The notes under the pieces: generated by a model
What the model was told of the DNA's origin: nothing
The model's database searches: none
The model's input: only the letters and a program-made list of their open reading frames with translations
Source of the DNA: Branchiostoma floridae
Lineage: Eukaryota; Chordata; Leptocardii; Amphioxiformes; Branchiostomatidae
Reading direction: 5' to 3'
Assembly (NCBI RefSeq): GCF_000003815.2
Contig: NC_049995.1
Coordinates: 5,172,729 to 5,236,728, forward strand
DNA length: 64,000 bases
Shown here: in pieces, positions 3,001 to 40,225 of the stretch
How the letters are laid out: every line of letters begins with the position of its first letter
Numbering within the stretch: the stretch's first letter is position 1
Program-made: the position numbers and the translations under genes

Positions 3001-4573
3001 TTAGTTAAAGCTCCTAAAGCTCCACTTTATCCTCTGAATGTAGTTCGAAGTGTGCAATGAATTGATGACTGATATACAAGTATGTGTATAGACATGTACA
3101 AGTACAGTCATGCTATAATGCTATTCCTACATTTGTACTGCTATTTCGGCAATGGCACAGTAATGCTTCGGCAAGTAGACAATAGTACAGTGTCTTGGAA
3201 TTGGTTTATACAAACATCTTTTTGCTTCCAAGTGTAAATAAGGTCCCGTAAGGTTCTGTATATAAGTAAATATCAAGTTACCTTCTCATCATCATGTTCA
3301 GAACACATGACGGTTTTCTTCTCAGCTGTTGGTTCCACAAGCTGATGTCTGGCAAAAACACCTTTCCTCGGATGGTAGTTAGACAGGCACGTCTCGCAGT
3401 ACTTCACATTACACTGAACACAGAGCTTCACGGCTGGGGAGGGGGGTTCTTCCTCACAGATCTGACAGGGGAGGACCTGTCCCTCTCCTCGACCTGCATG
3501 GTGTACAGAATGTACGATACGCCAAAAAGCAGTTACTCAAGCAACTGGATATGATTTTTGAAGCGGTCAGACGTTTCAGGTAGCATAGTGTTCCTATATC
3601 CAAAATTTGCCTTCAACTCCTGTGCATATAAATTCATACTTAAGAATAAAATCTGATCATTGTCACTGATAAGTGGTAGTGGATTCTACATGAAACGTCT
3701 GACCGTTTCCAATATCATATTCAGTTGCTTGGATAACTACTTTCTGCCCTACTCATACTATACATGGTTCGGTGCAGTGCAGTGCAACAAGACCAGCTGT
3801 TGCCACGCCAAGTGCATGCAAAGCTTGTATATTATATCCCGAAGGACGTTTATTATATCAACCATACAGAACCAGACCTGCGGCTTTGCGGTACCGTTCC
3901 ACGATGTTCTGGAGGAGGATGTTCCTTCTCGGTGTTGCCGCTGCCCCGCCAGGACTCAGGTCGGCTTCCTCTCTACACGTGGGGCACAGGAACGGCTCCT
4001 CTGTGACGTCAGGGTCGGAAGACTGGGAACTTTGAGAACTAAGAGACCCACTTTCCTTGCCAGGCTCTGAGGCAGCTTCGGCCCCATTATCAGTCTTCTT
4101 AAGAGACCTGTTTTAAGACGTTAAAAAGTACTTGTAAGACAGTCTAGCCTTTTCTTTCCGTCGAAAAAGGGGCGAGCAGAAAGGTGACAATATAACATTG
4201 TGTACTACTGAAGTGACGCCTGTAAAAATGGCGACAAACGTCCACAGTGCACGCTTATATGCTTACGTTGTCTCAGTGACTGAGATATACGTGGCACAAA
4301 GAAAAGAATACCATTATCATAACAAATATCTTTACAGTAATGTCACACGGGAAAGACACATCCATGTTGAATGTGTGGACAACCAGTACTGCCATACCCC
4401 ACCCACCCCTTAGGATTAAGGTTACAAGGATCACGGCGGCAACGGTCTTACGTTTACCTGCGCATGTTGTCAAAGCACCTGCGGCACAGGTTATGCTGAC
4501 AGGGCAGCTGCAGGGGGTCCTCAAACAGGTCCAGACACACGGGACAGGTCAGCTCCGACTCTAGAGCCTCCAT
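1..4573 (-). CDS. TRIM-like E3 ligase (RING, B-box1/2, COS, FN3) with a DOC-like C-terminus; 3' partial
   Basis: Eleven exons on the minus strand: 4573-4458 (ATG), 4107-3878, 3493-3282, 2964-2851, 2648-2553, 2270-2037, 1868-1846 (23-nt microexon), 1696-1575, 1304-1002, 464-334, 160 to beyond position 1. Phases agree at every junction, giving at least 580 residues. RING: CPVC near residue 10, CQHNLCRRC, then a Ser/Glu-rich insert of about 50 residues before the last pair CPTC. B-box1 (CQIC to YHPRKG to H), B-box2 (CSEH, CHLC, HKEH), coiled coil and a COS-like segment with [10 protein letters not shown], closest in my memory to TRIM36/TRIM46. FN3 is residues about 383-483. The last two exons read as a DOC/F5-8-like jelly roll ([35 protein letters not shown]) where a B30.2/SPRY domain is expected. 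Known family role: ubiquitin ligase, often microtubule-associated. The donor of exon 2 (GTCTGG) is weak. The N-terminal domains are near certain; the DOC call is strong inference. Confidence 0.85.
575..895. repeat. CGTA/ACGTAC-rich element in a TRIM intron
   Basis: About a dozen CGTAC or ACGTA motifs lie within 320 bp between TRIM exons 9 and 10. The two ends carry inverted versions of CGTACGTGCAA, so this may be a small inverted-repeat transposon (MITE). No coding sense is convincing. Confidence 0.5.
3530..3740. repeat. Inverted repeat with GAAACGTCTGAC arms in a TRIM intron
   Basis: Arms at about 3530-3577 and 3690-3740 are reverse complements over roughly 48 bp with a few mismatches; the shared core includes GAAACGTCTGACCG and CAGTTGCTTG. 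A diverged copy of one arm lies at about 55940-56010 in the RhoGAP gene, so this is a dispersed repeat, probably part of a retroelement tail. Confidence 0.6.
3765..3870 (+). mobile_element. LINE 3'-end fragment beside TRIM exon 2
   Basis: The stretch matches 7560-7650 on the same strand (shared words such as CAGTG, ACCAGCTG, CGAAGG, TATATC), which is itself the end of a reverse-transcriptase reading frame. It stops only a few bases from the TRIM exon 2 donor, which may explain that weak donor. Confidence 0.5.
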
Positions 4574-6901
4574 GGTGAGGGGTAAAAAAGGACGAAGACG
4601 ACCCTACTGAAACTAGAAGCAAAGGTTTCGGACTCGATACTTCCGGGTGCACTGGCCTGTGGATACCTTTGACATACGAACCTTAGCCGCTATTGTGTTT
4701 GCTTTACTGGCTGCACTGAAACACGTATGAAATTTGGGGTTTTGAAAAAGAAAATATAAGCTATGTTAGGCCCTCTTTTTAATTATAAACAGGACAACAT
4801 AATCTTTTGAAAGACTAGATATGAACGTCTGTAGCCGTCTTTAGGTAGACAACCTACCTAACTTTATTAGTAATCTCCAAGCAGATGTTGGGAAAAAGAT
4901 TGGAATGTTTCCTGGTTAACGACCAGGCTTCTATGATGGTTAGTTACGCCTTATTAGCATAGTAGTTATGAGACTTGAAAACCTGAATATTCCTATGTTA
5001 GATTTAAATTCGTTATCTGATAGTTCTTTTGTCTATCTGCTACTTAAAGGATCGGCTTTACTGACATCTGATATAAATTCCGAAATTCTCTCCATAACTC
5101 AATCATATTTATCCGAAACAAAACGATTTTGAAATTGCTTTTTGACTATCCTTATCATTTACTATTGGTAACATAAGTTTATCCGTCCGTTTCTTTTTAG
5201 AATTCGGCGTTCCCGTACCCGTTTCATCTTTTTTGTCCTATGTTGTGTTGTTATTTTGTCTAGTGGTGTCTTTAATATAAGCCTGTGTGCTTTAGTGGGG
5301 GCACCACTATGTTTTGTACTGTATTAATGTTGCAATAAAAAAACAAATAAGAAAAAAAATTGTTAAGGGAGAAAAACAGGATGTCCTCATATATTCTTAA
5401 CCGACTCGTTTCAGACGGAGGCGATGGTTGCGGTTCGATAGGTGAGTTTATTATGTTCAGGTCGAGAGTTTACAACAGCGGCACTATCTTAGCTCAATTA
5501 AGCCATGTTGATTTCATTATATGGATGACACCCACAGGGAACTCCAAACCTGATGCGGTTCCATGGGGTGTGAACTCATGCTCACCCGAAAGAAGTCTAC
5601 TCTACTCTACTGTACCCTAATAAAAAAAGGCCCCCCTCCCAACAAAACTCTGAAAGTCGCCTTCATTATGAAACCTTAGTGGTCAGGAAGATTGAATAAA
5701 GGACTAAACACAGGGTGTAGTAAACCAAACACTAGATTATCATTTTTGTTCTGTCACACCTTCTTGGACTTTACTTTGGAACTCTATGACGTTAGTATCC
5801 TTGTCCTCAATTTTTATTTAAGGCATACATTTGCTCATTTTACATGTATACAGCTGCTTTGTACGATTTACCGTATGGTTGAAAATTTAATTTTGGGGGG
5901 CCTAAAATTGATGCGCGTTGATGTCATCCATATAATCACATCAACAAGGCCTTACTAAACTTGGTAATAATGAATGAAGCACAATATCATCATCTTTAAG
6001 TTTTATCATTCATGACAGAAGTGTCGTGATGGACCCGGTAGAAACTCAGTATTCGGCCGCTACCTGCTCGGCCACAACCTGAGTGTTGGAGAAAACAAGA
6101 CAAACGTTAGGCACTTACCAAAGTTGTCGTCAGTTCATTACAATATGGAGAATTAGCATGAAAGCCGCTCATCTGTGTTGGTTTGATCCATTTTTTAGTT
6201 TGTAACTTTCATTCAACACAAGCAAGTATTACTTCATAAGGGGGGGGGGGGGGTGAAGGCGGTCATCTACAGAAGAACACGCCAGCCGACACTCAACTGA
6301 GACGGGGGGATATACATTGTTTGTATATATATATCTTGCCAGGCATTTACGATTCATTACTCGAGTCACGTGTCCTTAAAATCACGCGCTCAGAGTAATT
6401 GAATCACCATTCCAAAAGAAAATGGATGTGTGACTGAAAATTCGAGGTGAGCAACTTGTGTTGAAGGAAATTCCAACACGGCAAATTGTGTAACACTCCC
6501 TTGTAGCCATTCCAACGAATTATAAAGAATCCAGTTAACACAAGGTAGCTTAATGCACCTTACCGTGAAAGCCAAAAATCAGTATCACGATATATTTCAA
6601 TTATAGATACAATACAGCAAAATACAGCAAAATATTTCTTATCCTTGTACCATTCCACATGCCTCATAACTATTCGAAGGTATCACCAGGTCAGGTAACG
6701 ACTTACTTAAAGTCACATTTCCAAAACAAGGCTCAGCCGTGCAGTTTGCGGAAACGAAAAATACGTATAAAAAATACACACAAATGATGCCAAAGACTTT
6801 TCTCTTTACGTCTTGTGTACTTTGGTGTTTCTTACATCATACTTTTCGTTACCGAAAGCTGTCCGGTCGGGCCCGGGCGCCCCTGTTGGAATGATGTGAC
6901 A
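4574..6901. other. Intergenic, no gene seen
   Basis: Space between the TRIM start (4573, minus) and the carboxypeptidase stop (6902, minus). It contains the TRIM promoter region, a copy of the dispersed TAATCTCCAAGCAGATG motif at about 4871, a retroelement-like tail at 5200-5345, a run of 14 or more G near 6241, and a short TA repeat near 6325. The open frames here are short and show no family signature. Confidence 0.6.
5200..5345 (+). mobile_element. Possible non-LTR retrotransposon 3' tail
   Basis: A T-rich stretch with a GTGTGCTTTAGTGGGGGCAC segment ends in TTGCAATAAAAAAAC followed by an A-rich tract, the layout of a retrotransposon or retroposed mRNA end. No coding part was recognised upstream. 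Confidence 0.35.
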
Positions 6902-9900
6902 TTATCCTACCAGAAGCCCTGCGAAGAACTCGTCGGCAGAAGGTCGGATTTGGTCGGCAGGTAGGACGAAGCCGTCACGGAGCTGGATGGCGTAGGAATA
7001 CTTGATTCCGGCCACGGTGTAAGCCCAATCACAGCTGGATCCTCCCACCAAGCCGTCTGAAAAAAAAAGCCCCGTTTGAAACATTCTGTTGTCTGATTAG
7101 AACATTCACCTGCGGACATAAAATTACTAGAAATGTAGGAAAAGGTTGGCGACGATTGCATTTTAGTGAAGTTTTCTTTTTGTGGTACAATACGTATTTT
7201 CTGTTCCGAACACTCACTGATGTTGGCGATTGTTCCATGCATGAAACTGATCCCGTTGACAGAGTAGATGGCGCTTACTGCCCTTCCAGCAAGGTCATCC
7301 TAGAGAAGGAATTTCAAAGGAGTTAGTGGATGAGAAAGGTGACAATATTAATGTAGATGCTGAGATTGGCATATCAATTGGTTTCAATAATCGACTACAG
7401 TAGAGTTACCAACCTAGGATTGATGTGTTCAAAAATTCGTATTTTCCCAGAACTATCGTAGAGTGGAACTTGTTATCACCAAGCACATTAGGGGCATCTT
7501 CTCTGGATAGTTTTAAAGAACGCTTGCAGATAACTGTGCAAAAGTTAGGTGTGGCGGATCGTTCAGTGTAATATAACCAGCTGCTGCCGCATCGCGTGCC
7601 TGCGAAGCTGGTGTGTTACGCCGAAGGGCGGTTATACCGGCTATATAGATACAGATACAGATACAGTAGATCGAAGACCTGAGTTCCAGACCAATATCCC
7701 CGCAATAGTACATGTAGATTCTATTTTTCAAAGGTCGAGTTTTTCAACCTCCTTGGTCAGCACTCATCTTCCTCAGGTTTTAAGTAACAATCGAAGGCAG
7801 TGTCCCTCACCTGTTCCTCATAGTCTGGCGCTGAGTTGAAGGTCCAGCCGTGAGGGGTCATCCACGTCTGACCGGAGGCGTGCACGCTCAGGTAAGCCTT
7901 CAGGTTGTCGCTGTTCTCCATGACCAAGTCGCGGACCGCCTTTGTCTCGGGCTCGGAGAAGGCGACCGGTCCGTGGTAGATATCAGAGCAGGGGTCGTCG
8001 CTGGGGCTAGAGCCTGGAAACCACACACGTACAGCTGTCAATCATTATTTTGGTTGAAGGACGTTTATATCCAAACTTTCGTTTACAAGTAAGACGAAGG
8101 AAAACTTAGATTTTACCGACCTTGAAGACAGCAACAGACGTGGAAAACTACTTGTTCCATAATGATTTTGAATACCTCTCAGCAATATGTAAATTACGAA
8201 TTAGTTCGCACCCGTTAGAAATAGAGAGTGGACGATACCAAAAGCTACCTCTTCAGGAGAGATTTTAAGCAGTGCACAACGAATGCGGTGGAAAATGAAA
8301 CACATTTCATTTGTGAACGTCCCAGATTCGATGCCGAAAGAAACAGACTATTCGAAAGAGTGGAAAGGGTTATGTCTGAATCTGTATATAAAAGTCGTTT
8401 ACAGTATAACGTTAGGTCACCTTTATCCGCGGGGTAACCTATATTCGTTGTGTTAAAAAAATGTGTATCGATATCTAGGGATTTCAAATTGAAATATTTC
8501 CAAAATATTGCAGTATAAAGCTACCGTCTTTCGACTTGACGATCCCAAATACCCTATTCTTAAATACAACGGATATACGTTACCCCATGGATAAAGGTGA
8601 CCTAACGTTACTACCAAAGTGTACGTCCCAGTTACGGTTGGCGTCGACTCCGAAGCACAGCCCCCGGACGGAACGAGTTTTTTTCCACATCCGGTCCTGG
8701 TACCACGGAAATAAAAAGTTTTGATGAAAAATCATGCAACAGATTAACCTGTTATGTTGTCACCAAGGACGTCTTGAATAATGTGTCTAAACTTTTACTA
8801 AGGCCACATGGTCTTAATTTTATGGATGACATCCTCTGGAGACCCAAAACTAATGCCCGAGGGTGAAGAAAGAAAGTCCAGTGGAAAATGCTGCTAAAAC
8901 ACAGGACTGAACATCTAGACCCTTCTATCCCAGCCTTGTTTTTTTTCTTCTTATGTTCCCGTCCAGCACGACTGTAAGAGACAACCGTCACCATTTCAAT
9001 AATGTTTTTATGGCCATTCTTGTTTAAAGAGGGGAAGAATGGCGCAGTGGCCCCATGTCCTTAATCGCGGTGGCAAATTTTACCCCTCTGCCGGCTGAAG
9101 TCCCTCCCCAGCTTATGTTACTGTTTTATGCCACCGGAGGAATCTGCTTGGAGATTACCATGTCCTGACCATGTGACCAGGTATGCTGTTGGGTGACATG
9201 TGGCCACAGTTTGTTTTGTTTTATTTTCCAATGCAACGACAGGCGAAAATCAATGAGCGATCAGACATCATCCAGTGTGGCCTTATCTCCAGCCATATCT
9301 TCTAGTGACAGAACCGGATGATCTGCCTGGAGATTAAATTTTTACTGCCTACTGTCGGTGCTCTCTCTACTGCCGAAGAAAATTCGGGGTGGATACCAGC
9401 TCCCCTCTCATGAATATTTCAAATTATCTGGTTGCAAACTAATTTGAACGAAACACTATTTTGTTAACGACCAAAACTCAAACAAGATAGTTTTTAGAAA
9501 AGCTGACCGCGGCCGAAGATGGGAAATTAGAACTGGTTGGGTGTAGTAAGTGTCGTGAGCTCTTTCTAGTGGAGAAGAAAAAAATGTTAAGCCGAGGGGC
9601 TTGGTGGGCATGACTCCACCGTCAAGGAAAGTCGGGCACAACGTCGGAGAAAGGACATTATATAAGATATGTAATCTTTTGTAATCTTTTATAATGTCCT
9701 TGGTCGAAGGCATGGTGAATATCGAACCTAGAACCTCTTGGCTCTGAGCCGAATTTTTAGCCGGGCAGAAAGCCACCAAAATATGCTCGCTAAGCGACCA
9801 CTACCATTGATGACGGACGACTGATGGCGCATGATGTAACTAGCCTACCGACCAATCAGAAAGCTACAAAGGTCGTCTTTTTTCATTGGTTGGCAGAAGA

Positions 9901-12900
9901 ATTGAAATGAACGGGCCAGCAAAAATAAAATGTTTTCCTTCGGAAACATTATATACAAAAGCATGGAAACCACCATAAAAGTCAAGAATTGAAATGCACG
10001 AAGTGACTGTGATATTTCGTTACTTACCTCCGTGTGAGTGAAGACGTATCCGTCAACGTTGGTGACCGGAATGAAGTAGAAGTCCACCTGGTCCATAAGG
10101 GACGTGATCTGGCTGTCATTGCCATAGCCCTCCAGTAACTGGAATGTACATATTTTGCATTTCTTGGGTTGCATTTTACACGCCCTTTTTTGGCCTATAT
10201 CCAAAATTGTAAGTGAAACATACCGTGATTAAAGCACTGTTATTTTCGGAACTACTGGCAGTACTAGGTAACACATGACGTGACTGTATTTTTGCGTAAG
10301 GTAAACGTTGTATTTGCTTCGCCTATTTCTGTATACCCGTACAAGCTGCCTATCCGGACAGATTTATTTGATCCACTCGCACCGGGAAGGGCCCCTGCTT
10401 TTTTCGATAAGTGCGGTGTGTTCTTTAACGTGATCGAGGTGTGGCTGTCCTCAAACAAGGGAGACGGCCCTAACCGGTGAAGCTAGGTACTCATTGTCAC
10501 CTCAGTGAAGTGAGGAAAGTTGTGCAAAGTGTCACAAGTGCACAAGATCGGTGGCACATCAACGATTGGAACCCAGAACAATCTAGCAACCTGACAACTG
10601 TGCCACATGACCCGACATTGCGTCACCAAAGGTTGTCTGTTTTTTGCTGCTTGCTCGATCACCTGGTGACAAATGGCCCTATATGTACTTACGAACTTGA
10701 TGTTGTACATCAGAGTAGCAGACACGATCCAATCCCGGGCGTGGAGCTGTCCCTCCAGTAAAACGGCGGGCTTGTTTCCACCAGCGCTCCCCACCTGTGC
10801 GCGAGAGTAATACTTACATAAATAAGAGACATTACCTTAAAGTTTTGTTTCAACCTATATCGCCGCACAAAACAGTATCAGATCTTCAATCTGGCATCAT
10901 ATTGAATGAATCTTGACAGAGTACTACAAAAGTTCATTCCCGATACAGTGTACATGTACTCAGCTGATGTCAGCACATTTATGAACGAATCATCACACCT
11001 TGATGGCTCTGATATAGTAGCCTTCATACGTGGTTCCGATGGTGAAGACGGACGCCAGACTGGGATAACTCGTCGCGAAGTCTGTTAGCTGCGAATCGAT
11101 CTGTGGAGAGAAAGTTGCGACTCAAAGTCAAAGAAATTAGAAAAGTGGAAACTAATAACATAATGTCTAATGACACGATATGGACAATTATCATATAACG
11201 ACATCGATCAATCCGAAGGTCCCATCTCAATTCGGTTTTGACGCCGTAACACATAATTGCAACGAGCCGGATGTTAAATAAAAAGCACCGGATCCAATCA
11301 GAAGGAGCAATATACAGGGCATTGACCAATCAGACCACGTCCGCCATTTTCGAACAGGAATCATGGGTGAGAGGACTGCACAGTGCATTTCTTTTCGTCA
11401 AATTCGAAACCTCAGACTCATTTTCGAGTCACTGTAAGCTTCCTCCACTGGCTTCTCTGTGGGCATTGACCATTGTCGTAGCTAGGGGCGAACTACCCGG
11501 CATGTATTCCTTTCCCGGCATATTTTTCTTCCCGGTGTATTCCCGGTTAAAAATCACATCTTACCCAGAGAGGCCGGTGAAGGAGGCTACTGTAAGCTGG
11601 GTAAGTCCAAGAGCAACAATCAGTGGCTGACGGTCGGAAAGTTGAACATTTTGACCGGGAAAAAATGGGCAAAGCGGAACCTCGGGTAGTTTGGATAGGC
11701 TATATGGTAATATGATTCATGACCAGTGGATTAGGTAGTTATATATAGCAAATGACTTGGTGTTATTACACCATATACACCTCGGGGCGGGTCATTAAGC
11801 CTTAAATTTCGAATTGCACACGGTAGAATACCTACGTCAGCATAGGTGTTGTAGTCGTCGAAGTTGAAGCCTACGGCGCGAATGTGGCGTGATCTCGCCA
11901 TATTGATGCTTTGTTGAAGGTCATCAACCATCACCTTGTGCAGTACGGAAAAAAAGCATTATTGCCTTAACAAAAAGTACAGTGACTTTCGCATGGTCGG
12001 CTATAAACTACAAAGAAGGGACACAGAAAAAAACTTCAAGTTTTACAGACTAAACAATATAGGATAAAAAATACAATGAGGTGGGGCTAACGTTAACATT
12101 AGTGTCATTATTCTTTCTAATAACAAAACAATCTTTTGTGTATTTGCATGTAGCTATATCAGTATTATGTGTGTGGTCTCAGTATTATAAAAAAACATCA
12201 TTATGATAACCATCATCAAGGGTCGCTAACCATTGCGAATGATTATTCACAGGAAACGACTGGAGACGCGAAACATTCCCGGCCTACCGTGTACTTCATG
12301 CCAGTCTTCTCCAACAGGGTCTTCACTTTCCTGAGGAGATTCTTGGGCACGCGCACATCCACGGGACAGGAGAGGCAGGTCGGGCCCTTCCAGAAGTCAA
12401 CCTACGACAGCAAACAAAATCATTTCGCTCAAGTTAAACTAGAATCTGGGAAGCGAACGTTTGCATATAGAGTTAAAGAAAGCTAGAACTCACTTCCACT
12501 AGATGTTTCATCCACACAAACAAACACTAGTGTAAAAGAATTGGGTGACCCCTGGCCTCCAACCCTTACGACATGGCACGGATTATGAGGATATGGTTTT
12601 ATGACTTTATCTTTTTGTAAATATTGTTTGTATTGTGTGTTCCTGGGGTCTCAATAAAGCAGTCCTATGTCATGGATGAGAGCTATCCTGATGAAAGAAA
12701 ACAGAAATGAACAAGAGTTCGGAGAGCTCATATCTCCATGAAATAGTCTGAATATGTAAATGACCTCCACATTTACATAATTTATGCTTGGTTATGTACA
12801 TCTTTTGATAACTTACGCCGGTCACAATGTTGATTGTCCAATAATTTATCAATTAGAAGAATTATAGCACTTTTACATGAATTATGCAAATTATAATTAG

Positions 12901-14854
12901 TATCTGTTAAATGTTCCACTAGCCACAAACTTCAAACATCACAGGTATTTGAGTCCTATAATGGAAACACTACAAATATCTCATTAAATATGCAAATTAA
13001 GTGCCAGTTCGCATAATTTGCACTTGATGATGTTCATCTCTGTCTAAGCTACCTACATACCAAATATCACCTAAATTTGTTGCCTCCTTGTTCAGTTATC
13101 CTCCTTAGACGATTTTGACAAAACGCCCCTGCAGTTCCAGAGCAACCTGCTAGGGGACCTAAACATATACCTCGTATTCCTTACGTCACAAGCTATCTGC
13201 CACCAAAACATCAAGAATATAGCACATTCAGATGAAAATATACAAAAATGGAATTTCTGCTGCAGTACCAAGGTCACATACCAAATATCATCGTAATCCA
13301 TCCAGAGGTTCTTGAGTTATGCTGACTACGAGGGTGAGTCAGAAAGTAATGCAAGTGGTTTCATAACAGACTCGTTTTTTAATCAATTGAGTTGAAATTT
13401 GGCACAAAAGTAGAGGTATATGTCCTCTTGAGATTGAATGTTTTAAGTTTGGTCTTTATCATTTTATGAGCAACTGAGTTGATTTCAAGATGAACACACC
13501 CTTGGTAGCTTGTCAGACTATCAATTCCTCTAAATCTGACCCACTAAAAATCATTGTAGGAGGTTGAAATTATACATGTATGATACCAAATGTCTCTATA
13601 GGTTGCGTGCCAATTTTCTTCTCTAAACTCGTAATGATTCCTTATTTACAGCTGCTAGGATGCAGTAAGTTGTGTTATAGAGCTGTTGGATTTATACACG
13701 AATTCGTGAGTTGTTGGTTAAAATACTACTTTTTCATTCACCAAAAGAAACTAAACTTTATACAGCTATTAACTGTTTAAAGGACGAAAAGTGTGCTAAG
13801 TTTCATTTCTCTTTGTTAATTGGAAAGAAGGCTACAGAAAGTTTAATCATAAAACCACAGATCTCATGACCCTGAAGACCGCGTATACCTCACTCTACAC
13901 CAGCAACGAAAAAAGAAAAACTGCTCGGATTTCAGAGTTGAAATTAAGCATGTGGCTTATAGAGCAATGCAGCTTATTACATGTGCAGGCTTAGTCTCCT
14001 ACAATAGCAAAAACTGGTTTAGTGAAATTCTTAATTGTACGTTGATTAGACCTCACTTTTCTTCTGACGGGATACCAAGGGTGTGGTCACATTGAAAGCA
14101 GCTCAGTCACTCATAAAATAATGAGCAACAAATTTAGATATTTCAATCTCAAGAGGAGATATGTATTAACCTTTGTACCAAATTTCAACTCATTCGATCA
14201 AAGAACGACTCTGTTATGAAACCACTTGCATTACTTTCTGACTCACCCTCGTACAAAAACCGGAAACACAGACACACAGAGACAGACAGACACACCCAAA
14301 ACTATATCTTCATTTTTCATGGTGATAACAAAGTACTTTACAAAAGTCTGTTGTCTTTGTAATATTTTCAAAGTACTTTCAAAAGTATTGTTGTAAGAAA
14401 GTAGTTCCTACCAATTGTTCGAACCTCTCCAGTCGCACCAGCTTCTTCAGATGCCCCTCGTGCTCCGGGTGGATACGCAAAACTTGGTGTCTGTGGTTTA
14501 TTTACATAAGGATTCAAAATTACAAAAGTATGAGCATAATGTGAGCAAGTCTGGGAATTCCATTTCAAAACCGTCCAGTGGGTCGAATTCTAACGAGGAA
14601 TACATATCCAAGAGAGCATGTTTCATACTTTTTGATCGTAGAACAGAAGGAAGTATGGAGATAGATATGTGATGAGAAGGGACACAGGTCTAGAGGCAGA
14701 CAGCATGAGGAAAGCGGTGCTTGACATAGTCTTCTGGGCTGCTACAGTGGTTCGGGTGGCAGGGGAGTACGTCAAGTATGGAGAAGACTTACCCATCGAA
14801 TCGCTTGGCCGCGAACGCCACGAAAACCGTTGTCAGGAGCAGGAAAGCCTTCAT
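6902..14854 (-). CDS. M14 carboxypeptidase A/B-like zymogen, probably catalytically altered
   Basis: Eleven exons, all phases closing, 396 residues: 14854-14793, 14490-14412, 12401-12288, 11934-11836, 11100-10999, 10794-10693, 10138-10028, 8696-8615, 8013-7811, 7299-7218, 7056-6902 (stop 6904-6902). The protein begins with a signal peptide ([15 protein letters not shown]), then a propeptide of about 100 residues (HQVLRI, VDFWKGP), then the catalytic fold. Kept: zinc histidines H170 (LHARDW) and H295 (SVHASGQ), and substrate-binding R231 (KKTRS) and N243-R244 (ANRNW). Changed: the zinc-ligand Glu of HxxE is Asp173, the catalytic Glu of ELRD is Gln370 (QLRD), and Tyr198 and Tyr248 equivalents are absent. 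Residue 255 equivalent is Cys, neither CPA- nor CPB-like. The C-terminus is short. A secreted digestive-type fold is clear; activity is doubtful. The last exon could alternatively splice at GTAGGA. Confidence 0.92.
7440..7690 (+). mobile_element. CR1-like LINE reverse-transcriptase C-terminal fragment
   Basis: Plus-strand frame reads like the end of a LINE ORF2: R-x-x-x-EWN-x-L, then SLDSFKERL, then a stop and a tail with CCGAAGGGCGGTTATACCG and a short GATACA repeat. It lies in the carboxypeptidase intron between exons at 7811-8013 and 7218-7299, opposite in orientation to the gene. Confidence 0.65.
8228..8437 (+). mobile_element. LINE C-terminal fragment (zf-RVT type)
   Basis: The translation contains [20 protein letters not shown], the E-x-x-HF-x-x-x-C-x-x-x-x-x-x-x-R pattern of the zinc-knuckle tail after the reverse transcriptase of CR1/L2-like LINEs. 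The 3' end overlaps the start of the MITE at 8405. It sits in a carboxypeptidase intron. Confidence 0.6.
8405..8610. mobile_element. Small MITE with TAACGTTAGGTCACC ends
   Basis: Ends are inverted repeats of about 36 bp (TAACGTTAGGTCACCTTTAT then CCGCGGGGTAACC or CCATGGGGTAACG). The right end stops about 4 bp from the splice donor of carboxypeptidase exon 8615-8696. A related element is at 33505-33672. Confidence 0.7.
9130..9345. repeat. Two copies of the ATCTGCTTGGAGATTA dispersed motif
   Basis: Near 9150 and 9319 the motif occurs twice on the same strand inside a carboxypeptidase intron. The reverse complement, TAATCTCCAAGCAGAT, occurs at about 4871 and 41320 and in shortened form elsewhere in the window, so these are probably ends of a dispersed MITE family. 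Confidence 0.5.
10280..10590 (+). repeat. SINE-like repeat in a carboxypeptidase intron
   Basis: The segment with TACTCATTGTCACCTCAGTG followed by AAGTGAGGAAAGT resembles the stretch at 56925-56990 (CACCTGTCAGGAGTAAAGTG then AGGAAAGTCATGTAAAGTGCC). Two copies in one window suggest a dispersed short element; family not identified. Confidence 0.4.
13100..14320 (+). repeat. Dispersed CTGCAGTACCA...TTCTTGAGTTAT repeat, split by the mariner-like element
   Basis: Segments with CTGCAGTTCCAGAGCAACCT, CTGCAGTACCAAGG and TTCTTGAGTTATGCTGAC on the left, and an acacagacacacagag tract on the right, form one copy of a family also seen at 28375-28525, 31803-31950, 58110-58310 and 61600-61680. The mariner-like element interrupts it exactly after the GAGTTATGCTGAC segment. 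Confidence 0.65.
13329..14251. mobile_element. Non-autonomous Tc1/mariner-like element (MITE), TA target duplication
   Basis: The element begins CGAGGGTGAGTCAGAAAGTA and ends with its reverse complement. The ends stay recognisably inverted for well over 100 bp. TA dinucleotides at 13327-13328 and 14252-14253 flank it. The roughly 600 bp interior has no transposase-like reading frame. It lies in the carboxypeptidase intron between exons 14412-14490 and 12288-12401 and has landed inside another repeat (13100-13326 plus 14254-14320). Confidence 0.85.
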
Positions 14855-14919: not shown

Positions 14920-14925
14920 TTTATA
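14920..14925 (-). promoter_or_regulatory. TATA box of the carboxypeptidase gene
   Basis: TATAAA on the minus strand (context TTCTATAAAGCC) lies about 66 bp upstream of the ATG at 14854, leaving room for a start site near 14890 and a short 5'UTR. This fits a tissue-restricted, highly expressed secretory gene. Confidence 0.6.
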
Positions 14926-15940
14926 GAATCAATCTTACAACAGTTACTGTTTGTGAAAGCATTTTGCATACAAGTACAAAATGTACGTCCTTAAACTCGA
15001 GTGGTCCCTTCTACAGCCCTGTCTGGTGGCAAATCAACTCGTATGCATCAGGAGCTTAGCCTGGGTACCCACCATACTCTAAATTGTGTGGGAAGGGTAT
15101 AGGAGCCCGGTAAACTAACCAGGGTGACACTCATGCTACCAAGAAGTGTTTACTTGCTGTCCCCACAATATTGCAGTATTCACGCATTTCATATCAGTAA
15201 TAGTTGATAGTTCAGATTTCTCGCCACCGTTTAGTACGCATACGCGGATCCAGTCCGGAGGAGTGAGGTACGCAAGTCTGGAATACTGGGACTCAAAGTC
15301 AAAGTAGAACTTCACAATACATTTATGCGCGCCCCCCGGGGTCTGTGACGTGGGTATATAAATTTACATAAATTTGAGAGGTAGTCAGATATAGTCTGAG
15401 CTACATGGTCATGGCATGTGTCGAATTTGAGACTGCATGATTTGGATTGCGAAGGTTAAAATACTTTCCCTGGTCGCCATTTTGTTCTGACATTACCAAA
15501 CATTTGATCGGACAATCGTTCCAAATAGTTGACTTCTCATGGACAAATAAGGCATCAGTATAGTGAAAAAACACAGAGAAGAAATTGTCGACTTACCTCA
15601 GTGTGAAAGGAAGCTGTCTACAGTCTGCAAGCTGCTTAAAATCCCAGGGAGTCTGTCTTAACTATGTCCTTAAGTGTGCCCTTCAACTCTGCACTGACTG
15701 AGGTAGTTGGACTACCTGAGGTTAGCCGCCTATTGTCTTATATGCCCACAGGCGATACCTGAGATGTGTCACCCATGTGGACATGATGCGATGTATGTAA
15801 TCTTCTGTCATGGCTCGAAATTCTTTTTTCTACACTGATTTTTATCTAACATATTACACTGTTGGATGAATGTAACAGTGGACCTGATGAGCTTTGAAAA
15901 AAATATTTTAAGTAGTTGTATTACCTGTAATCCTATTTTT

Positions 15941-28600: not shown

Positions 28601-29972
28601 GTATACAAAAGACATTGGGCAGTGCTCAAGTTGAAACAGTATAAATTGCATTTGTACTATTTCTTGTAAAAGGAACCAAGTACCTATATCAAATATCACA
28701 GAAAATCATCGACGGAAGGCAATGTCCTATGATTGGACCTGTAACTAATCAACCATTGTGATGCATTTGGTAACGTGTAACATCGATTCCTATTGGTTGT
28801 TTCAGGACGACTCTTCCATCTACAGTCACCAGCTGGTGGATATAAGTACGACTTGGATGAAGCAAGGCACGCATGCGCAGAACAGGGTGCTAGTCTCGCC
28901 TCCTATCACCAGCTGGAGGAGGCCTGGCAGGACGGACTGGAGCGCTGCTCATGCGGGTGGCTGTCTGACGGGACCGCCCGGTATCCGACGCAAACATCCA
29001 GGTATGCTTGTCGAGAGTATCCGGTGCACCGGTGATGGAGGAAACATATTGTTTATGCTGGTGTGTTCTTTTTCTTTCTGCCTCCTGGCATCAAGGGTTT
29101 ACGAAAAGGCTGGACTGTGCACCAGGCCTGGCTACCTGGGCTGTCTACCTGGTCTGGCTATCACGCCAGTGTACTTAGACACCCCCATTCATAGCCCAAA
29201 TTCTTTTTTTCACTCACATACACTACTTTGGGGCGAGCCTAGTGATATAGTATCATATGGGAGTAGCTTGACATGAGGCTAGAGGGAAAACATTCTGCGT
29301 TTTTGCAAAAATGTTGCCTTTCTATTTTTTTGTTCCTTTTGCTAACTTCCAATGATTAAAGCTGTACACAATATTTTTGTTGAGTCGCATTGATTTCCGA
29401 TGTCTACAAAGCAATCATAACAACCTCTTCTCCTAGTAACTATATGAAGCAACAGCTCATTACATGTTTTTGTTTGTTTGTTTGTTTATTTGAACAACAA
29501 ATTAAAGTTCTTTCTTTACAACCGATGAGCAACATAGCCGTCGATATTTCGGTAGCCACCTGTCACCTTCTTCAGGACAATAAAGACAGGTTCACTTTGC
29601 TCTGCAGCTACTTGTTACTGCTATCAATGCGTTCCCAAACGTAAAGTTACGTGCCACATACAAAGTGCGAAGTGAATCAGCCATTTTTGCTCTTAAGAAA
29701 TTGACAGACGGTCATCGAAACGCCAGATATTACTCCTTATTTCAGTCGCTCATTAACCTGACGAAACCAAGGAGGTTGAACCCCTCTTCTCAACCTCATT
29801 GATGAAACTATTCACCAATGTTTGTTTAGTTTTGTTTCCTCGTTTGTTTGCTTCATTATTGTGCATTGTCAACCTTAGCCCTGCCTGTGGAAACCGGGTT
29901 GGCATCAACCGCTGCGGATGGAGCACCCAATGGAACGCCTGGTGCTTCCGCCGGCTCCCTGTCTGTGACTGA
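25615..29972 (+). CDS. Secreted coiled-coil Link-domain protein, copy 1
   Basis: Four exons, all phases closing, 219 residues: 25615-25828, 27405-27560, 28806-29001, 29879-29972 (stop 29970). The start is chosen by alignment with copy 2. Residues 1-23 are a signal peptide (VVVTFLVTFVFLCSG); a Cys pair CAPCNQ follows; residues about 48-115 are a coiled coil (GLKSELDHMKIVVKQL, LEEQLAQERNRVNSIQ). Exon 3 starts a Link module at residue 124 (LFHLQSPAGGYKYDLDEARH, CAEQGASLASY, AWQDGLERC, GWLSDGTARYP), completed by exon 4 (PACGNRVG, WNAWCF). The four Link cysteines are present plus extra ones. Link modules bind hyaluronan or other glycans in TSG-6, CD44 and hyalectans. A coiled coil directly before a single Link module suggests an oligomeric secreted lectin; ligand unknown. 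Intron 2 carries a LINE insertion absent from copy 2. Confidence 0.9.
25897..26240 (+). mobile_element. LINE C-terminal fragment and 3' tail in Link gene 1 intron 1
   Basis: The frame 25897-26109 (YNDKRTELF, FNYILGG, AGKYIHECLYRR) matches the C-terminal tail pattern of LINE reverse transcriptase. Its 3' noncoding end, GAAAGTCACTGTACTTTTGT then TGTCAATAA, recurs at about 35920-35960 and, inverted, at 61070-61110 and near 11970. Confidence 0.65.
26575..26752. mobile_element. Hairpin MITE with TTCCAAGCAGACCC arms
   Basis: Arms of about 49 bp at 26575-26623 and 26704-26752 are near-perfect reverse complements (ACGGTGCCTTAGA, ATAGTATCAAAGCTGGC). The outer tips contain CTCCAAGCAGA, linking it to the motif dispersed through the window. 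It lies in Link gene 1 intron 1. Confidence 0.75.
27709..28365 (+). mobile_element. 5'-truncated LINE with (ATTC)n tail and target duplication
   Basis: Absent from the matching intron of copy 2, where the sequence is continuous at TGTAGATATC. Here TGTAGA occurs at 27703-27708 and again at 28360-28365. The insert encodes a reverse-transcriptase tail (ICTMCSLGEVENEAHFLFYC) broken by a TGA near 27876, then ends in about 20 ATTC units. Confidence 0.9.
28367..28530 (+). repeat. Copy of the CTGCAGTACCAAGAG dispersed repeat
   Basis: CTGCAGTACCAAGAGAAGTT, CTAGGAGTCCCAAA and TTCTTGAGTTATCTTGTTGA belong to the family split by the mariner-like element at 13.3 kb. The same copy is at 31803-31950 in Link gene 2, so it predates the duplication. 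Confidence 0.65.
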
Positions 29973-30934: not shown

Positions 30935-32796
30935 ATGGCGCCGTGTCTGGCCGTCGTCGTAACGTTCCTTGTGACGTTTGTGTTCCTGTGCTCTGGCCAG
31001 TCGGTCTGCAAGCCGCCTACAGAGGAGAAATGCACGTGTAACCAGGTAGTGAACGTCGGTACGGACGAGGGGCTGAAGTCTGAACTGGATCGCCTGAAAA
31101 TCGTCGTGGAGCAACTTTCACAGAAGATAGCAAATTTTTCAGAAGGTATGTCAATACTAGAACTTCCTTTAGTATCTTCGTGACATTTGTTTGCTACATA
31201 GTTCGTTAATTTGAAAGTAACAGACCAGCAGATAAAGATAGCGTGCAATACGATCGGGTCTTTGGCATCTTTTCTTTGCTGTCTTTAGTATGAAACTCGA
31301 AGAATTTTTTAGATGACAACCGTGCAAATATTGTCTGTAACACGCGTACTCTGCCCCCTTCTTTGCGAACAGAAATCTAGAAAATAGCTGGTTTGGTCCA
31401 CCACGTTGGCGAAACACCTGTAAACACTACCTGACATTATCTACTACTACCTGTGCCCTCCCCCATTACATTTTCCCATCTCCTATTGCCTTACGTAGAC
31501 CGAGTATCGAACCTGGAGGAACAACTGGCTCAGGAGCGAAACAAGGTGAATAGTATCCAGGAAGGCTTCGCGCATGTGCAGAACGCCACGACCCAGAATA
31601 GCGAGCTGGCGGGAAAACTGAAAACCGACCTGTGCAGCGCAATACCGAAACTGGGTAAGGGACAACCAAACAAATGAAAGCGCATAAAATACGAGTGGAT
31701 GTGAGAATTATGTGGAAAGAAATCCAAAACTACTTTTTTAAGCATTACCAAAACAGCACACAACTAGAGTTTGGCGACCTCATACCTCCATGAAATATGT
31801 AGATATCCAACACGGAAGTTGCGCTGCAGTACCAAGAGAAGTTGCTAGGGATCCCAAAATCTAATCATTTTCAGCTTTTATCACACCCTACCAACACACC
31901 AAGTATGAAACCAATTCACTTAGCCGTTCTTGAGTTATCTTGTTGACAGACAAACACAGGGTAAAATCTAACCTCAATGACATTTCATGGAGGCAACTAG
32001 TTTCTTAATAAAGCCAAGTAAATAGAAAAGCGGATGCTGTATACAAAAGACATTGGGCAGTGCTCAAGTTGAAACAGTATAAATTGCATTTGTACTATTT
32101 CTTGTAAAAGGAACCAAGTACCTATATCAAATATCACAGAAAATCATCGACGGAAGGCAATATCCTATGATTGGACCTGTAACTAATCAACCATTGTGAT
32201 GCATTTGGTAACGTGTAACATCGATTCCTATTGGTTGTTTCAGGACGACTCTTTCATGTACAGTCACCAGCTGGTGAATATAAGTACGACTTGTATGAAG
32301 CAAGGCACGCATGCGCAGAACAGGGTGCTAGTCTCGCCTCCTACCACCACCTGTACGAGGCCTGGCAGGACGGACTGGAGCGCTGCGCATGCGGGTGGCT
32401 GTCTGACGGGACCGCCCGGTATCCGATGCAAGAAGACAAGTTGGTCCTTTTTTAGCCTCGGCTGTACTTCCGTATTTTGTGCAGTGCTGCATCATTGTTT
32501 TCATTTGTAGGTCATGCAAGTTCAACTTTTGAACCTGTCCTCAAGCCGAAGTGTTGAATTGGGTTTCCTCAGAAAAAGACAATATCATAAAGTTCTGGAA
32601 TTCCATAAAGGACCATATGTCGGCTTTCTGATTTGCGTGTTTGTACGTTTGTTTGTTTGTTTATTGTTTCTTTGTTTGTTTTACCGTTTCAACCCGTAGA
32701 GGTCCTGGCTGTGGCGGCGGGCGTGGCATCTTTACCTGTTCGCACTCAAGTACTTATAACGCCTGGTGCTTCCGTCAGCTCAGCATCTGTGACTGA
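30935..32796 (+). CDS. Secreted coiled-coil Link-domain protein, copy 2
   Basis: Four exons, all phases closing, again 219 residues: 30935-31145, 31499-31654, 32244-32439, 32700-32796 (stop 32794). Signal peptide (VVVTFLVTFVFLCSG), CTCNQ cysteines, coiled coil (GLKSELDRLKIVVEQL, LEEQLAQERNKVNSIQ), Link module (LFHVQSPAGEYKYDLYEARH, CAEQGASLASY, GWLSDGTARYP, then PGCGGGRG and YNAWCF). Exons 2 and 3 have exactly the lengths of copy 1. The exon 3 donor is GTTGGT, weak but in the right place and phase; without it the frame hits a stop at 32453. Unlike copy 1, intron 2 lacks the LINE, which makes this gene much more compact. Likely a functional paralogue with the same secreted glycan-binding role; if the weak donor fails, it is a pseudogene. 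Confidence 0.85.
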
Positions 32797-34559: not shown

Positions 34560-34721
34560 CCATGATACCCCTGACACGTGGGAGCCGCCATGTTGTGACC
34601 TCTGACCTAACGCGTGGGACAGACAGTACTTGTAGCACACGTACCGGGACAAACCAAGGACAAAAAGTCCTACAAAAACTCCCTTAAATATCACCAACCG
34701 TACCAGCCCACCACATAACCC
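34560..34721 (+). promoter_or_regulatory. Candidate AK2 promoter, TATA-less
   Basis: Directly upstream of the AK2 ATG there is no TATA box. Visible words are an E-box CACGTG at 34575, GCCGCCATGTTG at 34584 (YY1-like), and TTACCCATGATACC just before. Such sites are typical of housekeeping promoters; function is inferred. Confidence 0.5.

Positions 34722-40225
<5,504 letters not shown>

Follow-up and report, generated by a model that had tools for sequence, protein, structure and literature searches.

The 64,000-nucleotide stretch of the Branchiostoma floridae genome analysed here (the window; assembly GCF_000003815.2, contig NC_049995.1, positions 5,172,729–5,236,728) carries on its minus strand, at window positions 14854..6046, a gene whose protein has the build of a digestive carboxypeptidase zymogen of the M14A type and in which most of the catalytic residues are replaced. 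We suggest, with a probability of roughly 0.7, that this protein is a zymogen-type M14A homologue that is non-catalytic and retained by selection. It is probably not one broken gene: together with two sister genes elsewhere in the genome it appears to form a small retained family of non-cutting look-alikes, and the loss of the catalytic site may go back to the common ancestor of the three.

The family assignment follows from a Pfam scan, which used an earlier 396-residue model of the protein, before the last exon was added. Residues 25–97 of this model match the propeptide family Propep_M14 (PF02244, E = 5e-19, 68.6 bits) and residues 121–390 match Peptidase_M14 (PF00246, E = 3.2e-81, 273.5 bits), both above the cut-off, so that the protein shows the succession of PF02244 and PF00246 by which M14A homologues are recognised. 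A signal peptide and a propeptide had been proposed in the original prediction; the propeptide is confirmed by Propep_M14 and the signal peptide is a judgement by eye. The closest relatives of solved structure are human pro-CPA2 (1aye, E = 1e-88) and human pro-CPA1 (E = 3.9e-88), with about 40% identity.

For the comparison of single residues the protein was aligned with five solved vertebrate carboxypeptidases, with human CPA1 as the anchor for carboxypeptidase A numbering. In this numbering the window protein reads H69, R71, D72, K127, N144, R145, H196, S198, G248, C255, and Q270, and the residues 274–277, adjacent to the position of Glu270, are missing. The zinc triad H69/E72/H196 has thus become His, Asp, His, the pair Arg127 and Glu270 of active enzymes has become Lys and Gln, and the carboxylate site Asn144/Arg145 is preserved. 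The motifs HARDW (Asp173, codon GAT at 10734-10732) and QLRD (Gln370, codon CAG at 6985-6983), on which the original prediction was founded, hold up on the minus strand, and the equivalents of Tyr198 and Tyr248, also claimed to be absent, align as Ser297 and Gly347 in the comparison with the five vertebrate enzymes. That list of lesions was right for positions 72, 198, 248, and 270 and had overlooked the exchange of Arg127 for Lys and the deletion of 274–277. By its sequence the protein is an M14 pseudopeptidase, since its M14 domain is recognisable and residues essential for catalysis are replaced.

A survey of prokaryotic relatives, limited to the best 80 of 425, shows no exception at Glu72, Arg127, His196, or Glu270. 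These relatives were found with two conserved peptide patterns, one of them spanning position 127 with either Arg or Lys allowed, so that the sample favours conserved enzymes. Tyr248 is found in 78 of these 80 sequences and Tyr198 in just 50, and loss of Tyr198 was therefore discarded as a sign of inactivity. All five vertebrate sequences possess Glu72, Arg127, Tyr248, and Glu270. When the window protein was compared with these five, losses at core residues were not significantly enriched (5 of 10 core positions against 28 of 91 others, p = 0.29). Because the zinc ligand, Arg127, the general base, and Tyr248 are all changed, we infer that the window protein has no peptidase activity. This is supported by the discussion in PMC5683605, which describes Glu270 as essential to catalysis but not to binding and says that with Gln in its place binding still occurs and hydrolysis does not.

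In the assembly that contains the window (513 Mb, 431 contigs), searches at the level of the family and of the protein gave at least ten loci recognised as M14A-type; other M14 matches (further ones among 85 rows of one search, and in another two at 31–34% identity, on C11 and C1) were classed as other M14 types and left out. The HARDW motif recurs in two of these ten loci, L016 (C15:19.14 Mb) and L017 (C15:19.37 Mb), which lie on a different contig from that of the window. With these two sister genes at hand the idea of a single odd gene was given up. The three genes, which are mutually 76–79% identical, have in common the exchanges E72D and Y248G, which are encoded in separate exons (6 and 11). 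R127K is present in the window gene and in L016, and in L017 this position is hidden by a 100-N assembly gap. Other positions differ from copy to copy: in the order window gene, L016, L017, position 270 is Gln, Lys, Glu and position 196 is His, His, Gln, and the 274–277 loop is altered differently in each. The remaining seven of the ten loci retain Glu72, Arg127, His196, and Glu270, as read by alignment in L011–L013 and by motif in L009, L010, L014, and L015. Gly199 is also common to the three HARDW genes; an exchange of Ser199 for Gly was rejected as a mark of the clade, as the intact genes L014 and L015 have Gly199 too. The original prediction had advised looking for a tandem active paralogue: none was found in the window, and the intact relatives are located elsewhere in the assembly.

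A tree was built from the five vertebrate sequences and six of the ten loci, and the ratio of nonsynonymous to synonymous substitution rates (omega) was likewise determined on these six; L009, L010, L014, and L015, whose automatic gene models contained internal stops or had wrong 5' exons, were left out. The HARDW genes group together, all three, with an ultrafast bootstrap of 99 and a Shimodaira–Hasegawa-like approximate likelihood ratio test of 95, adjoined by the intact gene L011 (100/98). As the shared changes sit in different exons (6 and 11, and in two of the genes also 8), a single shared loss followed by duplication is a simpler account than gene conversion. We infer from these sequences that one ancestral loss occurred in the three-gene clade.

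Selection was assessed with a GY94-type codon model (F3x4, fixed tree, 411 codons). Omega is 0.28 outside the clade, 0.24 on its stem branch, and 0.62 within it; this last value differs from that outside (p = 3e-6) and is lower than 1 (p = 0.0016). For the window branch omega is 0.46 and below 1 (p = 0.006). When L017 was left out, with and without gapped columns, the window branch gave 0.41 and 0.40 (p = 0.003 and 0.002) and the two-gene clade 0.65 and 0.63, again below 1 (p = 0.029 and 0.019). Hence the window copy is under constraint, and the clade is relaxed but constrained. Among these paralogues of one genome retention by selection is seen for the window branch; L016 alone does not show it.

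The survival of the reading frames points in the same direction. The window gene and L016 can be aligned over 3247 nt of introns 1–9. The alignment contains 492 mismatches as well as 85 gap events, and the length of 60 of these gaps is not a multiple of three. At this intron rate the 1209 aligned coding nucleotides should have acquired about 22 frame-breaking gaps since the split of the three genes, which the shared lesions predate, and, with a probability of 0.035 that a random base change creates a stop, about 6.5 stop codons; none of either is seen, and both frames are open up to the conserved stop in exon 12. As the coding alignment was guided by the protein, its four gaps are bound to be multiples of three, and the intact frames are the actual finding. 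The divergence between the two genes is 13.8% in the coding sequence and 15.2% in the introns; codon positions 1 and 2 together differ by 13.0% and position 3 by 15.4%. A substitution rate near that of introns fits a relaxed constraint on single residues together with a constraint on an intact protein. Of the original prediction one part, the secreted pseudoenzyme kept under selection, is supported, namely by the lesions that the sisters share with it in part, the omega of the window branch, and the missing indels and stops; the other part, a role in binding inhibitors or peptides, would be a possibility. The argument of the prediction, the open frame, is weak evidence when taken alone.

The most serious alternative is a dying gene, which has lost both catalysis and constraint and whose open frame is merely a matter of time. 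In favour of it are the doubling of omega in the clade, the nearly equal divergence of the codon positions, an omega near 1 for L016, and the inverted-repeat element that adjoins the exon-8 donor. On the other side stand the omega of the window branch, which is below 1 in three analyses, the absence of the expected indels and stops, and the matches of exon 12 and of a TATA-like element in the paralogues. Taken together we consider a dying gene rather improbable.

Nevertheless, a number of observations weigh against a retained non-catalytic protein. The L016 branch has an omega of about 1.2 when L017 is left out, and this gene may be drifting or changing under selection. In L017 exon 10 is irregular, and so is the junction of exons 8 and 9, in addition to the 100-N gap that lies in exon 8. 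Intron 8 of the window gene contains, right at the exon-8 donor, an inverted-repeat element of 204 nt (8407-8610) whose 62-nt arms are 84% complementary, and this donor agrees with the consensus at 4 of 9 positions, the lowest value of the 11 donors of the gene. The same donor is weak in the relatives as well (3 of 9 in L016, 5 of 9 in L011), and thus the insertion need not have damaged the donor of the window gene. The conservation of Asn144, Arg145, and Arg71 in three genes that are 76–79% identical is in our judgement not significant alone. Finally, the location of the losses has to be read with care. Eight intact enzymes agree with one another at 66 positions of the mature domain; of these, 11 of 29 in the segments lining the cleft are changed versus 2 of 37 elsewhere (p = 0.0014), where changed means altered in at least one of the three clade genes, the L017 gap columns 122–133 not being counted as losses, and where the cleft segments were set once the lesions were known. 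Without position 199 the p value is 0.003, and without positions 72, 127, 198, 199, 248, and 270 it is 0.095. This test is only supportive.

It is very unlikely that the window protein is still an active enzyme with an altered chemistry, in which Asp serves as zinc ligand, Lys replaces Arg127, and there is no classical general base. Both zinc histidines remain, a glutamine zinc ligand is reported in the title of a paper for another M14 enzyme, and a passage in PMC5683605 notes for another member that Asp is able to coordinate zinc. Against this, the zinc ligand, Arg127, the general base, Tyr248, and the 274–277 loop are all changed in one and the same protein, the sister L016 has Lys270 and the sister L017 has lost His196, and Glu270 is described as catalytically essential in PMC5683605. 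A sequencing or assembly artefact, to which one might resort as GAT and CAG are each one base away from a Glu codon, can practically be dismissed, since E72D and Y248G recur in separate exons at two loci on another contig and the window gene carries R127K and a four-residue deletion in addition.

For the retained non-catalytic protein the following history can be envisaged. The clade of three would have arisen by duplication from an active gene resembling L011. In the common ancestor the zinc-binding Glu72 would have been replaced by Asp and Tyr248 by Gly, and probably Arg127 by Lys, which is unreadable in one copy; afterwards each copy would have lost other parts separately. In the window protein the general base would then have disappeared (E270Q) together with the loop that lies behind it, while the fold, the propeptide, Asn144/Arg145, and the two zinc histidines stayed. 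Such a protein might work by binding, either as a decoy for C-terminal peptides or inhibitors or as a regulator of the active paralogues. The kept carboxylate site Asn144/Arg145 would be compatible with the binding of C-terminal peptides, and Y248G and R127K also alter the pocket. We regard binding through the old substrate cleft specifically as a tentative proposal, which is somewhat less likely than not and more doubtful than the retention of the protein as such.

The selection analysis also hints at a different role. Within the clade omega is 0.42 for the propeptide (below 1 with p = 2e-5) and 0.70 for the carboxypeptidase domain (below 1 with p = 0.02), and the two values differ from each other (p = 0.004); outside the clade the values of 0.27 and 0.29 do not differ measurably (p = 0.55, tied value). 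The stronger constraint on the propeptide suggests a regulation of the active paralogues in trans. The three genes might accordingly be seen as propeptide carriers, pseudo-zymogens whose propeptide, displayed on a dead scaffold or freed by trypsin, would inhibit or chaperone the active paralogues. We think that this is improbable; if true, the propeptide carriers would be a gene-encoded and self-derived regulator of digestive carboxypeptidases.

Human pro-CPA1 and pro-CPA2 (M14A; 5om9, 1aye) share with the window protein the order of propeptide and catalytic domain, about 40% of the residues, and His69, Arg71, Asn144, Arg145, His196, Cys138, and Cys161. They differ from it at the exchanges E72D, R127K, Y198S, Y248G, and E270Q, in the residues 274–277, and at position 255, where the window protein has Cys. 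Among the vertebrate M14 proteins that have lost catalysis, AEBP1/ACLP, CPXM1, CPXM2, and domain III of carboxypeptidase D (CPD) are not known to have an M14A propeptide. According to PMC11266112 these are, like the window protein, secretory M14 proteins retained after the loss of catalysis, and they differ by discoidin or transthyretin-like domains. The table of that review lists for CPD domain III the loss of both Glu72 (to Ala) and Glu270 (to Tyr), and in this table none of AEBP1, CPXM1, CPXM2, CPD domain III, and the fungal Ecm14 has Asp72, Lys127, or Gln270. The identical exchange of Glu for Gln at the general base is described in PMC5683605 for E270Q mutants of carboxypeptidase D made in the laboratory; in contrast to the window protein, the rest of the site is intact in the domains that were mutated.

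Nearest in kind is Ecm14, an M14A-type fungal pseudopeptidase with a cleavable prodomain, although the losses differ. From PMC7706225 and PMC11266112 it can be taken that Ecm14 is kept across the ascomycetes, that it has the same zymogen architecture with a replaced general base, and that it retains His69/Glu72/His196 and Arg127 and has Asp144, His145, and Lys270. The window protein shows the opposite pattern, with the carboxylate site kept and the zinc-binding Glu and Arg127 changed, and it does not have the combination of E270K, His145, Asp144, and an intact triad that characterises the Ecm14 type. The review PMC11266112 names, as M14 pseudopeptidases, four from vertebrates and one characterised member from fungi, the latter related to the digestive A/B enzymes, and PMC7706225 describes inactive homologues in basidiomycetes as another group. 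No paper on the window gene, L016, or L017 was found in searches of open-licence papers. An animal clade of digestive-type pseudopeptidases in zymogen form would have originated separately, and the intact sister genes of that genome would offer a natural control. The losses can be put in order: the zinc-binding Glu and Tyr248 (probably also Arg127) were lost early, the general base afterwards and in a different way from copy to copy. This opens the question of what a dead protease is retained for to tests by expression and by comparison between amphioxus species.

The gene model was obtained by reading exon by exon with GT-AG joins and comprises 12 exons and 404 residues, all on the minus strand. 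A TATA-like element (TTCTATAAA, 14920..14928), whose function is putative, is found about 65 nt upstream of the start codon and aligns at the equal place upstream of the window gene, L011, L016, and L017. The open frame begins at 14854 in exon 1 (14793..14854), which contains the start codon and the signal-peptide-like stretch. Exon 2 (14412..14490, with the start of PF02244) and exon 3 (12288..12401) encode the propeptide, and exon 4 (11836..11934) encodes its end, an Arg-containing activation segment, and the start of the mature domain. The carboxypeptidase domain continues through exon 5 (10999..11100), exon 6 (10693..10794; HARDW with His69 and Arg71 kept and Asp173 in the place of Glu72), exon 7 (10028..10138), and exon 8 (8615..8696; motif DRMWKK, Arg127 to Lys228 at 8684-8682, Asn144 and Arg145 kept). 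Exon 9 (7811..8013) retains His196 as His295 and has Tyr198 replaced by Ser297 at 7876-7874; exon 10 (7218..7299) is again part of the carboxypeptidase domain. Exon 11 (6911..7056) contains Gly347 in the place of Tyr248 (7054-7052), Cys354 at the specificity position 255, Gln370 in the place of Glu270, and the site of the 274–277 deletion. Exon 12 (6046..6078) encodes the C-terminal VVAEQVAAEY and the stop codon.

The 3' end differs from that of the original prediction, which had counted 11 exons and placed the gene at 6902..10794, an interval that covers just exons 6–11. The end at 6902 was rejected, as the stop found there belongs to intron 11 and results from read-through; the paralogue L011 has at the position matching the end of window exon 11 a plain splice donor (CTG|GTAAGT). 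Exon 12 and its acceptor form a short downstream block that is conserved among the window gene, L011, L016, and L017, and a counterpart of exon 12 is present in all five modelled paralogues (L011, L012, L013, L016, L017), reading VVAEHIAIEFYT in L012 and VVAEHIAKEFST in L013, each followed by a stop. For exon 8 there is an alternative donor 3 nt further on (exon end 8612), which would yield 405 residues; both choices are in frame, as judged by hand. By eye, the intron-8 sequence that matches L016 seems to restart beyond the far side of the inverted repeat. The G+C content is 40% in the window, 56% in the coding sequence of the first gene model, and 72% at its third positions.

Several paralogues contain additional exon-like stretches. 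The 3' end of exon 6 recurs in additional partial copies after this exon, with VSASLLYNIKF or a second 11-letter version, in L016 (about 5855-5937) and L017 (about 2403-2435 and 2665-2697), and L010 has two adjacent exon-6-like stretches (4692-4848), possibly an exon duplication. In L016 an additional partial start of exon 9 (PSSDPCSDNYVGPSPFSE, 2444-2497) is located upstream of the exon 9 used. L015 has a Cys/Thr-rich insertion between the WRK and NRNW motifs (5560-5750), which by eye is shorter in L014.

Elsewhere in the window the plus strand carries two similar exons for extracellular link (Xlink) domains (28781-29032 and 32219-32452) and exons matching adenylate kinase (34719-40222), of which two are above the Pfam cut-off and the first one is below. 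On the minus strand a RING finger exon is found at 4457-4603, together with a Cys-containing stretch at 3861-4112 that matches no family.

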